DNA of 64,000 bases from Oscillatoria sp. FACHB-1407 (GCF_014697545.1 NZ_JACJSA010000009.1:124001-188000); one strand, 5' to 3'. Positions 11,254 to 16,384 are shown, counted from the stretch's first letter. The notes: generated from the sequence alone by a model not told the origin. Numbers and translations: made by a program.

Positions 11254-13359
11254 TCATCTTTTCTTGTTTCTCGCTTCCCCATCCCACGCTTCAACCTGCT
11301 CGATCTCGGTCGTGGTTAAGCCGTATAACTCATAGACCAGGTGATTGATCTGGCGATCGCACAATTCCACTAATTCCACAGATTCCCGTGATTGTCCCTG
11401 GAGGAGACGCCAATTAACCAGCTCAAGCAGTTGGCAATAGAGAGAGTGGTTTGCGGTGATTTTTTCAGTGGGGCGATCGCCCACGTTTTCCAGGTCAGGC
11501 GGTGGAATGGGAATCTGTTTGAGTTGGGGTGGTCCCACTCGCAAATACCCTCCTTGCAGACTGTTGCCGCCAAAGTGGCTAACAAAATAGAGCCGAATGA
11601 GGCTGCTGTTCAAAATTCCCAGAAGGTAGCGCAGGTCAACCGTTGAACAAACCACCGACGTCGATTTGCCTGCCAAAATGCCTCCAGTGGCATCAAGGGC
11701 ACATTCTAAGCCTTGTGTCATGCCAGCGACCACGATTTTGGGTTGAGACGCCTGTTGCCAGCGTTTTTGGGGTAACTGCTGAGCTTGCGATCGCCCCACC
11801 ACAGGGTGCCAGTAGCTCGCTCCCAAATACCGCAATGGTTTCTGACCCCACAACAAACAATAGCGATCGATCGTGCCACTGTTGACCATTCGCAGATCTC
11901 CGGGCTCTGGCTCTGGTTTGTCTTGAAGGAGCGATCGCAGGTCATACGCCTCGGCAACGGTGGCGGCTCCAGTGACTTGAGCAATCTCAGCCAATGGGGG
12001 AAATTTGAGTCGCAGTTCAGCGAGCCAGAGTGCTGATGCGTTGGGGGAGGAGAGCAACCAGGGCTGCTCAGGGTGGCGGGTGTAGAGGGCATAGTCGAAG
12101 GAATGCGATCGCTCCACTACCGGAGCAGAGGCATCCCCGACCAGAGTCATCTGTGCGTACTCAACAGATGATAGCGATGTCGCAATTCCTTTTTGCGCGA
12201 TGAACACCAAAGGATAGGCTGCTGCCGCAAACACTGGCACACGGGAGTAGTCGTGAATCGCCAGGAGGTGGTTGTCACGGGTGAGGAGCGATCGCACCTT
12301 TGCCGCATAGGTCGCCGATGCCAGTTTGTTAGGGACGACAAAGCTCAGCACCCCCCCCGGTTTGCACAGTTCCAACCCCTTCTCAATAAATACGCAAAAC
12401 AGATCCCAGTTGCCGACAGCAGTTTGATAGTGAGTCGTGCAATACCGTCGCCATTCGGGCAATAGGGCTGTCATCCACTCAGAGTCAAGGTAAGGGGGGT
12501 TGCCCACCACCCCATCAAATCCGCCCGCCTCTGTGAGGACAGGAAAGGTTTGGTGCCAATCAAAATTGATGAGGGCATTGCCGCACTGGAGATTGTGATC
12601 CAGGTTGGGCAGTGAACCAGGGGGATCGGATTCGCCAATCAGCAGTTGCAACCAGAGGGAAAGCTTAGTGACAGCGATCGCCTGAGGGTCAATGTCTACC
12701 CCAAAAATGCAATCCAGGAGAAGCGATCGCCGCTTTTCGTAGGGTAAGTGGGCGGCGTGTGCCTCTAACAACCGTTGGTAAGCTGTCAGCAGAAACACCC
12801 CCCCACCACAGGCAGGGTCTAGAACGGTGGGTCTGGGGTTAGACAGTCGATCGAGTGTGTTGTGGAGGATGTCATTGGCGATCGCCCGTGGTGTGTAATA
12901 CGATCCCCCCGTCTTTTGGACGGAAGGGTTTTGAGTGCTGCCATGAGAATTTGTGATCTCCCACTGGCTCAAACACCGTTCGTATGCCTGTCCTAAAAGC
13001 TCAACCCCGATCGCTGTTGTCCACGCGGTTTCAAGCTGGATGAGCGTATCGCAGAGCAGGTCATCCGGGATGATCAGGTGCCTATTTAAGGGAAGCAAAA
13101 GGGATGGATAACTTGTATTGACAACCTGGATTAAGTGCTGCAACCGCCCGTAAATATCACTCTCTCGTTGCAGGCGATGGAGGTGTCCTGCTGAAATCAG
13201 GCGATACTGTTCGCACAATTTCAACCCTAAAAGGTTGATGATCAAGTTCTGAATCGGGTAGTTGCGTTCGGATGGAGATAGCGCGGGCTGTTGCTGAGTG
13301 AGGTAGGTGGCGATCGCTCGTTGCCAACGCTCAACCTGTCGCAGTAGCCCTTCACTCAT
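11254..13359 (-). CDS. N6-adenine DNA methyltransferase, Eco57I-like, no nuclease domain seen
   Basis: A 701-residue protein with a gamma-type N6-adenine methylase core: TGGSYYTP (150-157, motif X), DPACGGGVFLL (181-191, AdoMet-binding motif I), FGVDIDPQAI (219-228, motif II), CGNALINF (259-266) and the catalytic NPPY (287-290). The C-terminal ~300 residues resemble the TaqI/Eco57I-type target recognition domain. Type IIG enzymes carry a nuclease domain before the methylase; here the first ~145 residues show no PD-(D/E)xK pattern I can see, so it is probably an orphan methylase or works with a separate nuclease. Its ATG overlaps the SRAP stop by 4 bases (ATGA). Confidence 0.88.
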   Translation of the reverse strand: MSEGLLRQVERWQRAIATYLTQQQPALSPSERNYPIQNLIINLLGLKLCEQYRLISAGHLHRLQRESDIYGRLQHLIQVVNTSYPSLLLPLNRHLIIPDDLLCDTLIQLETAWTTAIGVELLGQAYERCLSQWEITNSHGSTQNPSVQKTGGSYYTPRAIANDILHNTLDRLSNPRPTVLDPACGGGVFLLTAYQRLLEAHAAHLPYEKRRSLLLDCIFGVDIDPQAIAVTKLSLWLQLLIGESDPPGSLPNLDHNLQCGNALINFDWHQTFPVLTEAGGFDGVVGNPPYLDSEWMTALLPEWRRYCTTHYQTAVGNWDLFCVFIEKGLELCKPGGVLSFVVPNKLASATYAAKVRSLLTRDNHLLAIHDYSRVPVFAAAAYPLVFIAQKGIATSLSSVEYAQMTLVGDASAPVVERSHSFDYALYTRHPEQPWLLSSPNASALWLAELRLKFPPLAEIAQVTGAATVAEAYDLRSLLQDKPEPEPGDLRMVNSGTIDRYCLLWGQKPLRYLGASYWHPVVGRSQAQQLPQKRWQQASQPKIVVAGMTQGLECALDATGGILAGKSTSVVCSTVDLRYLLGILNSSLIRLYFVSHFGGNSLQGGYLRVGPPQLKQIPIPPPDLENVGDRPTEKITANHSLYCQLLELVNWRLLQGQSRESVELVELCDRQINHLVYELYGLTTTEIEQVEAWDGEARNKKR

Positions 13360-14027
13360 GCGCCGATCGGTTCAACACAAGTGGGATCGTCATACTTCGG
13401 GCTATTCATCCGAGGACTCACCGGATAGCTCATCATCGGGTCAGTGTCATAAGGCTGCAAGAGTGCCTCGAGTCGGTCGGTTTGTTGCATATCAGGGTCG
13501 AGCCAGAGATCGTAATCCTGAGGATGAAGAATTACAGGCATCCGATCATGAATCGAACTCAGGAGATCGTTTGCCTCGGTTGTCAAAATCGTGCAGGAGT
13601 CAATCTCACTCCCGTCGGCTCCCTGCCAGTGCTCCCACAATCCAGCAAAGGCAAAAGGCTGGTGCGATCGCATCTGAAAATAGTAAGGTTGTTTGCCTGT
13701 GTCCGATCGCTGCCATTCATAAAAGCCATCGGTTACAACCAGACATCGTCTACGCTTAAATGCTGCTCGAAAGGAGGGTTTCTCCGCTACTGTCTCCGCC
13801 CGTGCGTTGATCAGGCGTGCGCCCATCTTAGGGTCTTTTGCCCACGAGGGAATTAACCCCCAATACAGCAATTGAAAGTGCCGTGGCTCGTCTGCCATGG
13901 CGAGAACGACGGGGGCAGGTTGGGTGGGGGCAATGTTGTAGCGAGGCATCACATCCGGTTCGACACTGAGTTGAAACGTCTCAGCGATCGCCTTTCCCGT
14001 TTGCCCTAACGAAAACCGTCCGCACAC
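13356..14027 (-). CDS. SRAP/HMCES-family abasic-site DNA-protein crosslink protein (YedK-like)
   Basis: A 223-residue SOS-response-associated peptidase-family protein. Known members (bacterial YedK, human HMCES) trap abasic sites in single-stranded DNA through a covalent bond from Cys2 and may also release it autocatalytically. All key elements are present: Met-Cys2-Gly at the N-terminus (MCGRFSLG), RYNIAPTQ with Asn31, LINARAET (72-79), DGFYEW with Glu104, and HDRMPVIL with His160. It is middle gene of a three-gene set: the nuclease ends 21 bases upstream and its own stop overlaps the methylase start. Confidence 0.95.
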   Translation of the reverse strand: MCGRFSLGQTGKAIAETFQLSVEPDVMPRYNIAPTQPAPVVLAMADEPRHFQLLYWGLIPSWAKDPKMGARLINARAETVAEKPSFRAAFKRRRCLVVTDGFYEWQRSDTGKQPYYFQMRSHQPFAFAGLWEHWQGADGSEIDSCTILTTEANDLLSSIHDRMPVILHPQDYDLWLDPDMQQTDRLEALLQPYDTDPMMSYPVSPRMNSPKYDDPTCVEPIGA

Positions 14028-14048
14028 TGCCCTCTGCTCCCAAATTGA

Positions 14049-14843
14049 TCAAAGGCTCAATACGAGTTGTAGCCCACTTTCGGGTTTGCTGTCCTCTGGC
14101 AAAGGATCGGGATCTACATTCACCGCCGGACAATAGCGCGCGTAGGCACAGCGATCGCACTGATCTCCCGGAAACGGCGACCAACGGCGATCGTGTCGCA
14201 GTTGCAAGGCTAACTCGCCAATCAGTGACTCAACCTGCTGCCGATGATGAGGTGTAACATCAAAGCTAATTTTTTCTCCGCTGCGAAGGTAAAGCAAGCT
14301 CAACCGCTTTAAGCTACGCCGATAGCGTTGCTCCAGTGCCAAAAAATACAGCCCGATCTGCAAATCCATCTCATCGGGGTGCATCAGGTCGATGTCCTTA
14401 GAGGATTTGTAGTCAATTAACTCCAGCCCATCGTCTAGATAATCGAGGCGATCATACCGTCCTGTTAAAAGAAACTCGACGTTTTCAACTTGCAACGTCC
14501 CCTGAATTCTGCCTTCCACTGCGAGTGGTCGCCGCAACGAACTTTGATTAGCGATGAACGTATGATAATAACGCTGTAGGATTGATCGTCCCTCAGTCAC
14601 CTGATTCGGAGTTAGATCGCGGGTCTGCTGACTCCAACAATGCTCCAGCCAATCAAACTGAGGAATGGCATCCTGATAGTGCCAATCTCGATAAATTTGT
14701 GCCAATGCTTGATGCAGTGAGGTTCCCAGGACGGCTGAGCTAAAAAACGCCGCTCCGGGCAACCGCCGCTCATACCGAAAATAATACGCTTGGGGACAAC
14801 GATAATATGCCTGTAGCTTAGCGGCGGAGATCGAGTACGTCAT
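14049..14843 (-). CDS. Cas4/RecB-like PD-(D/E)xK nuclease with Fe-S cysteines
   Basis: A 264-residue protein when started at the ATG at 14843 (MTYSISAAKLQAYYRCPQAY), which has AGGTGA upstream; an in-frame GTG 66 bases earlier adds an unconserved extension. The nuclease core is clear: a His in LHQAL (44), GRYDRLDY with Asp131, LELIDYKSSK (140-149) giving the Asp-x-Lys pair, and the QxxxY-like LQIGLYFLAL. Cys16 plus CDRCAYARYC (Cys229, 232, 238) form the four-cysteine set that binds a 4Fe-4S cluster in Cas4 and AddB. No CRISPR array or cas genes are near, so a DNA repair or defence role with the SRAP and methylase genes is more likely. Confidence 0.9.
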   Translation of the reverse strand: MTYSISAAKLQAYYRCPQAYYFRYERRLPGAAFFSSAVLGTSLHQALAQIYRDWHYQDAIPQFDWLEHCWSQQTRDLTPNQVTEGRSILQRYYHTFIANQSSLRRPLAVEGRIQGTLQVENVEFLLTGRYDRLDYLDDGLELIDYKSSKDIDLMHPDEMDLQIGLYFLALEQRYRRSLKRLSLLYLRSGEKISFDVTPHHRQQVESLIGELALQLRHDRRWSPFPGDQCDRCAYARYCPAVNVDPDPLPEDSKPESGLQLVLSL

Positions 14844-14910
14844 AATCACCTGAAGCAGAGAGTGGCAGATCAAGAGCGGCAGGTCACAACCAACACCAAC
14901 GACCCACACC

Positions 14911-14960: not shown

Positions 14961-15172
14961 GGTAGTGTCTAAGCTAAAATTTCTGATCGCGATCGCCACA
15001 TTCAGTGTTTCTTGTCCCTACTCAGCCAGAGGCGGTTTTGACAAAATTCGCGTTCCTAAGCCATAATCTCATCACACAAAAGGCAATTTTGGGAACCCTA
15101 GTAACAGAACTATTGCCCCTTTAAGACAGATCAAGTCTTTATCATGGGTTAAAGCCCTTTATCGCAGTCGTA

Positions 15173-16384
15173 ATGCTGAGCCGAATTAAAGATATTGCCG
15201 CCAGTCTTGCCCCTCGCCTCATTGAGATTCGTCGTCACCTCCACAGCAACCCCGAACTGAGTGGTCAAGAATATCAAACTGCTGCCTATGTGGCAGGGGT
15301 CATGTCCTCCTGTGGGTTGCGTGTGCAAGAACTGGTTGGCAAGGTGGGAGTCGTAGCCGAGCTAGCCGGAACCGGGGAAGATTCTCGATTACTCGCCATT
15401 CGGACGGACATGGACGCTCTCCCGATTCAGGAGCGTACCGGGTTAGACTTTGCCTCTCGCCAACCAGGCATCATGCACGCCTGTGGTCATGATGTCCACA
15501 CAACCGTTGGCTTGGGTACGGCAATGGTCTTGTCTCAACTGGCAGAAGCATTACCGGGCAACATCCGATTTCTCTTTCAACCTGCCGAAGAAACGGCTCA
15601 AGGGGCAAACTGGATGATTCGGGATGGGGCAATGAATGGAGTATCGTCAATCTTGAGTGTTCATGTGTTTCCCACAATCCCCGCAGGTTGTGTTGGCATC
15701 CGCTATGGAGCACTGACAGCAGCAGCAGACGATCTAGAGTTGACGATCATTGGAGAGTCAGGGCATGGGGCACGCCCCCACGAGGCGGTTGATGCGATCT
15801 GGATTGCCTCTCAGGTGATCACGACGCTGCAACAGGCGATTAGCCGCACCCAAAATCCACTGCGTCCTGTCGTGCTGACCATTGGTCAAATTCAAGGAGG
15901 ACGAGCTCCCAACGTGATTGCCGATCAGGTGCGTATGACGGGCACAGTGCGATCGCTTCACCCTGACACCAGCGCAACCCTGCCCAACTGGATCGAGCAG
16001 ATTGTAGCGAGTGTCTGCCAATCTTATGGGGCACGGTATGAAATGAACTACAAACGGGGGGTTCCCTCGGTATTAAACAACTCACCGTTGACTCAGATTG
16101 TTGAAACAGCAGCAGAGGAAGCTTGGGGCAGCGATCGCGTCCAGATCTTGCTGGAACCTTCCCTCGGAGCCGAAGATTTCTCCCTTTATCTACAACACGC
16201 CCCCGGAACAATGTTTCGTCTGGGGGTCGCCTTTCCCGACCAACCCAACTACCCCCTCCATCATCCTCAGTTTCATGTCGATGAAGCATCGATTGTGACA
16301 GGAGTTGTCACCATGGCATATTCTGCTTACCTGTATTGGCAACGGGGTGATCATCGTGACGGGGGAGCAGATTTACCTCGCTAG
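15173..16384 (+). CDS. M20-family amidohydrolase (N-acyl amino acid / IAA-amide hydrolase type)
   Basis: A 403-residue metallopeptidase-fold enzyme that hydrolyses N-acyl amino acids or related amides. Metal-binding residues are visible: RTDMDALP (77-84), MHACGHDVHTT with Cys104, His106 and His109, and QPAEE (136-140). A lid domain in the middle has GHGARPHEAVDAIW, and the C-terminus has GAEDFSLYLQHAPGTMFRLG and PLHHPQFHVDE, all typical. The substrate cannot be told from sequence. It stands alone between spacers, with a hairpin terminator candidate at 16429. Confidence 0.92.
   Translation: MLSRIKDIAASLAPRLIEIRRHLHSNPELSGQEYQTAAYVAGVMSSCGLRVQELVGKVGVVAELAGTGEDSRLLAIRTDMDALPIQERTGLDFASRQPGIMHACGHDVHTTVGLGTAMVLSQLAEALPGNIRFLFQPAEETAQGANWMIRDGAMNGVSSILSVHVFPTIPAGCVGIRYGALTAAADDLELTIIGESGHGARPHEAVDAIWIASQVITTLQQAISRTQNPLRPVVLTIGQIQGGRAPNVIADQVRMTGTVRSLHPDTSATLPNWIEQIVASVCQSYGARYEMNYKRGVPSVLNNSPLTQIVETAAEEAWGSDRVQILLEPSLGAEDFSLYLQHAPGTMFRLGVAFPDQPNYPLHHPQFHVDEASIVTGVVTMAYSAYLYWQRGDHRDGGADLPR

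Follow-up and report, generated by a model that had tools for sequence, protein, structure and literature searches.

A nuclease, an abasic-site protein and a methylase on one strand

Why does the gene for a DNA adenine methylase stand next to those for an abasic-site protein and a Cas4-like nuclease in Oscillatoria sp. FACHB-1407? The original prediction was that the three form a split restriction or repair system, in which the separate nuclease replaces a nuclease domain missing from the methylase. In the 64,000-nucleotide stretch of DNA that we analysed (referred to as the window), three minus-strand open reading frames lie in the order nuclease, SRAP, methylase. The nuclease gene (14049..14843) encodes a stand-alone Cas4-like PD-(D/E)xK protein of 264 aa whose four conserved cysteines are predicted to hold an Fe-S cluster. 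After an intergenic gap of 21 nt (14028..14048; the gap is 7-49 nt at other compact loci) comes a gene with a GTG start for a SRAP protein of the YedK/HMCES abasic-site type (13356..14027; 223 aa), followed at a spacing of -4 nt, an ATGA overlap of the end of the SRAP gene with the start of the next, by the gene for a 701-aa Eco57I/TaqI-type (gamma-class) DNA N6-adenine methyltransferase (11254..13359). The gene identities first assigned were confirmed by Pfam matches for all three proteins, and the operon-like layout was found as described. Promoter and terminator scans gave matches at chance level only, a search of phages and plasmids returned no close relatives (the best on plasmids had ~30% identity), and our literature search found no paper describing the methylase or the trio. 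In many genomes of the family, whether the trio is linked or not, the nuclease gene is divergent with a neighbouring M20 peptidase gene (15173-16384 in the window).

A methylase akin to type IIG enzymes

The methylase matches the Eco57I family (PF07669, E=1.3e-34) and TaqI_C (PF12950, E=3e-08), as well as N6_Mtase, and has the gamma-class order of a SAM-binding core, an NPP[YF] motif and a C-terminal target-recognition domain. A helical N-domain (residues 1-136) precedes the catalytic core (~150-415, with NPPY at 287-290), and the TaqI_C target-recognition domain (~440-640) is followed by a helical C-end. The NPP-Y/F motif is intact in relatives, with NPP invariant. Pfam detected a nuclease domain in none of the 36 orthologues (0/36), and the N-terminus is all-helical in a structural model (mean pLDDT 88.5); the suggestion that the methylase lacks a nuclease domain was therefore borne out, and the window enzyme does not have the N-terminal fusion of nuclease to methylase that characterizes type IIG enzymes.

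The closest solved folds are those of CamA, M.BseCI and M.TaqI, the top match being CamA (PDB 7LNI; TM-score 0.55/0.70). CamA is an orphan adenine methyltransferase of Clostridioides difficile that is present in all genomes of the species, conserved lineage-wide, and affects sporulation and biofilm (PMC8187626). The two enzymes are of the same gamma class; neither has a nuclease, and the target-recognition domain is large and C-terminal in both. However, they share 17% identity, and the window enzyme adds a helical N-domain of 140 aa, has type IIG enzymes as its sister clade and is encoded by a gene coupled to that of SRAP (the target of CamA is CAAAAA).

That sister clade came from a scan of named genomes, which recovered methylase relatives outside the cyanobacteria in planctomycetes, Gallionella, Bacteroidota, Nannocystis and others. 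Among clades from outside the cyanobacteria, the closest is made up of type IIG enzymes, ~970-1060 aa long, with an N-terminal HSDR_N domain that bears a PD...EAK motif; HSDR_N was tested for and found in three of them (L160, L164 and L173), and the six complete sister genes (from planctomycetes, Gallionella and a Bacteroidales MAG) encode ~196-233 extra N-terminal residues. These enzymes (PADLOC group PDLC03604; L160, L164 and L170-L173) share with the window methylase the helical connector, the core (46-49% identity) and the target-recognition domain (44-49% identity), whereas their N-terminal HSDR_N nuclease, of the PD-(D/E)xK type, is absent from the window methylase, whose start falls directly after that domain. 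In a phylogenetic tree the cyanobacterial methylases and that of Nannocystis form one group (SH-aLRT 100) that adjoins the nuclease-bearing clade; the only cyanobacterial methylase outside the group, that of G012, lies on a long branch. The simplest reading is that the nuclease was lost once, at the root of this group.

Among the cyanobacterial methylases the median identity is 0.51 in the core and 0.54 in the target-recognition domain. Because the target-recognition domain is conserved to the same degree as the core, both within cyanobacteria and in comparison with the type IIG sisters, the alignments indicate that the group and its sisters probably share one target. The sister enzymes probably cut at this same motif, so that a motif found in either group would decode both.

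More distant relatives of the methylase (L196, L201, L203, L207, L208, L210, L211 and L215) are preceded by a gene of ~1050-1170 aa. In the two cases tested (L203 and L211) this gene encodes a helicase with a PLD-like domain (HKD+Snf2, DrmD-like), and helicase and distant methylase relative likely make up a two-gene defence arrangement.

Retention of the methylase across the family

We determined the distribution of the three genes in 117 genomes of the class, among which the family of the host was fully sampled (36 genomes), and counted methylases as orthologues at E below 1e-60. The nuclease was found in 68 genomes, SRAP in 65 and the methylase orthologue in 48. Within the family, the methylase is present in 34/36 genomes, 26 of the 27 of high quality and 20 of the 21 genera. 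Two other Eco57I-family methylases of the host genome, both DrmMI/type IIG-like, occur in just 11/36 and 9/36 family genomes; thus, restriction and defence methylases are patchy in this family but the trio methylase is not. Both retention throughout a lineage and a recognition domain conserved as well as the core, as expected of an orphan, regulatory-type methylase, are found here.

Three draft genomes carry a methylase that is split in two frames or contains a TGA (L130 in G026, L129 in G027 and L131 in G028), which reflects decay or assembly error; some of these genes may be decaying. Separately, the two DrmMI/type IIG-like methylases of the host (G000:C13:41957-45568 and G000:C61:752-4051; L230 and L229) are 97% identical over their first ~448 residues and ~70% identical over the rest (one in-frame TAA was read through in one segment for this comparison), a pattern suggestive of a recent gene conversion or a partial duplication.

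An orphan adenine methylase as the favoured reading

Taken together, the loss of a domain that the sister clade still has, the near-universal retention in the family, the conservation of the recognition domain at the level of the core and the lack of an obligate nuclease partner make it fairly likely that the core of the locus is an orphan DNA adenine methyltransferase, which arose from a type IIG enzyme minus its nuclease and has been kept family-wide as a housekeeping or regulatory mark with a fixed target. We infer an active methylase with an unchanging target, whose mark serves regulation or maintenance and not protection. By analogy with CamA, the enzyme would then probably lay down a solitary epigenetic mark. 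In outline, a fused restriction-modification enzyme of type IIG would have lost its N-terminal nuclease, and the remaining methylase would have been kept across the cyanobacterial family as a constant DNA mark. Several points speak against this reading: the genome may harbour a restriction nuclease at another locus; outside the family the nuclease gene is again linked to the methylase gene, in three genomes of family f25, and co-occurs with it significantly when genomes are counted; and some of the split or interrupted orthologues in draft genomes may be decaying.

If the orphan reading is right, a whole filamentous cyanobacterial family carries a constant, domesticated adenine mark of restriction-enzyme descent; to our knowledge, few orphan methylases in cyanobacteria, those of the DmtA/DmtB type, are widely conserved.

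Linkage of the SRAP and methylase genes

The SRAP protein matches PF02586 over its full length (E=8.5e-83), and its residues C2, N74, E104 and H160 are invariant in relatives, with Cys2 following a removable Met. The full-length match and these invariant positions (the catalytic Cys2, Asn, Glu and His) are shared with YedK and HMCES, but the window protein differs from them in being coupled to an adenine methylase. For SRAP genes, published contexts are UmuCD, ImuAB-DnaE2, DinB, LexA, Ku/ligase, SplB and RecD-like (PMC3765255).

In the family of the host, SRAP and methylase genes are adjacent on one strand in 20 of the 25 genomes that carry both, and the 4-nt ATGA overlap is kept at 11 loci from 7 genera. 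Outside the family they are adjacent in none of the seven genomes with both genes (0/7), and their co-occurrence there does not exceed chance (p=1.0). The flanking genes are scrambled: the gene downstream of the methylase is common to just 1/162 between-genus locus pairs. Since SRAP and methylase genes are adjacent so often while the gene downstream of the methylase is so rarely shared, clustering exceeds chance, and the overlap and adjacency amid scrambled flanks suggest that SRAP and methylase are a pair under selection in the family. The conserved overlap also suggests that the two proteins are co-translated there. The likeliest reason for the coupling would be shared expression around replication, when SRAP could cap abasic sites in single-stranded DNA and the methylase could re-mark new DNA. 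The coupling offers a concrete starting point for tests of a possible connection between DNA methylation and the handling of abasic sites.

The trio as a whole is a looser, partly inherited neighbourhood. It is compact (genes within 50 nt) in 7/36 family genomes, from 4 genera, and at the looser limit of ~8 kb the genes keep strand and order in 13 genomes; a fourteenth such case, G029, is inferred across a contig break. The nuclease gene adjoins the methylase gene without SRAP in G009, G018 and G027 and, at a distance of 738-778 nt, in the three f25 genomes, and all three genes lie apart in G005, G006, G007 and G023. Hence of the three-gene unit first proposed, which was expected to hold together in most relatives, what stood was a stable SRAP-methylase pair, and that only in the host's own family.

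An SRPBCC-like gene (assigned by reading the sequence) recurs in four families, beside the methylase gene or between the nuclease gene and SRAP or methylase (L094:7826-8329, L096:11930-12541, L099:11353-11907, L102:9094-9768, L104:9064-9687 and L112:8051-8824), and its recurrence suggests an older cluster. In three genera a single-stranded-DNA-binding-like gene is convergent with the methylase gene (L096:7412-7924, L101:10177-10662 and L128:9816-10286).

Shared descent or a module at the replication fork

The three genes may simply be unrelated housekeeping genes that share no function and that remain neighbours by descent. This explanation overlaps with the orphan reading, which needs no shared function, and we regard it as unlikely, if worth serious consideration. 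Every pairwise arrangement exists, including the full separation noted above, the nuclease gene often stands divergent with the M20 peptidase gene instead, and the distances of nuclease and methylase are not significantly correlated when one genome per genus is used (r=0.13, p=0.20). What descent does not readily explain is the kept overlap and the adjacency of SRAP and methylase, given the rarity of a common gene immediately downstream, which together suggest selection on the pair.

Alternatively, the three genes could form a co-regulated damage or replication-fork module, in which the nuclease would process ends, SRAP would shield abasic sites and the methylase would mark parental DNA for strand-directed repair. 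The retention of the SRAP-methylase overlap while the flanking genes are scrambled is consistent with such a module, as is the presence of SRAP genes elsewhere in SOS and translesion operons (PMC3765255). However, the one LexA-type match upstream of the genes (15092-15105, with 1 mismatch) is not significant, the window total being no higher than in shuffled sequences; the methylase persists without SRAP in eight family genomes (G008, G012, G018, G022, G024, G027, G033 and G035; drafts among them may have gaps); and a single family shows this gene order. We thus give this explanation little credence. We consider equally doubtful a narrower version, in which a family-wide orphan methylase translationally coupled to SRAP is the functional unit, marking and abasic shielding act jointly at the fork, and the nuclease is an accessory in some genera. 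If true, it would link adenine methylation to abasic-site tolerance, a connection not described before.

The nuclease as a probably independent enzyme

The nuclease matches PDDEXK_1 (PF12705, E=4.4e-31) and Cas_Cas4 (PF01930, E=4.8e-08), and its 59 bits against the NCBIfam model for CRISPR Cas4 (cas4, equivalog TIGR00372) fall below the curated cut-off of 65. Residues H44, D131, D144-x-K146, Q162xxxY166 and C16/C229/C232/C238 are intact across relatives; this PD-(D/E)xK core with QxxxY and four putative Fe-S cysteines places the protein among solo-Cas4 nucleases, an assignment by sequence motifs and profiles, with the fold left unconfirmed by a poor AlphaFold model (pLDDT 51.7). A profile of the nuclease found no relative of solved structure by sequence. 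(Upstream, the open reading frame could begin as far out as a GTG at 14909, but it is the ATG at 14843 that relatives conserve.) We know of no sequence specificity of its own for the Cas4 class.

Cas4-like pfam12705 nucleases with the same PD-(D/E)xK motif and four cysteines occur outside CRISPR loci, among them a Cas4-like nuclease that limits RSF1010 plasmids in Synechococcus elongatus (PMC10653904). The window gene differs from the latter in lying upstream of SRAP and methylase genes. A named S. elongatus control genome contains a PF01930 match, and G065, which is S. elongatus-like (its identity is inferred), encodes a probable orthologue with ~50% identity and neither SRAP nor the methylase. 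If G065 is indeed S. elongatus, its nuclease would be an example of a plasmid-limiting role without this methylase.

Across the sample, 24 of the 68 genomes that carry the nuclease have no methylase, and 4 of the 48 with the methylase have no nuclease (drafts are included in both counts, where absence can be an assembly gap); one of these four is the complete single-contig genome G053, which has the methylase with neither SRAP nor the nuclease. These separate occurrences, together with G065, argue that the nuclease cannot be an obligate partner. Outside the family, nuclease and methylase occur together more often than by chance if single genomes are compared (p=0.002), but the association is not significant once families are the unit of counting (p=0.68). 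The nuclease is probably an independent, widespread cyanobacterial enzyme of DNA processing or plasmid limitation that stands upstream of the SRAP-methylase pair in some genera.

Split restriction-modification, with the Cas4-like nuclease cutting unmethylated DNA in the lost domain's stead and SRAP protecting resected or damaged DNA, can point to nuclease and methylase being neighbours in two cyanobacterial families and co-occurring by genome, to the plasmid limitation in S. elongatus, and to reports of solo-Cas4 beside restriction-modification genes and of UvrD-Cas4 with Mod/Res or Dcm/Vsr (PMC5704561), but is very unlikely given the separate occurrences of nuclease and methylase, the chance-level co-occurrence of SRAP and methylase outside the family, the lack of a known sequence specificity of its own in the Cas4 class, a lost domain of the HSDR_N and not the Cas4/PDDEXK_1 type, and a methylase retained, with its recognition domain, unlike patchy restriction systems.

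Finally, the host genome encodes a second, more typical Cas4 (G000:C8:15415-15939; L223), a 212-aa frame that matches PF01930 with E=1.1e-21.
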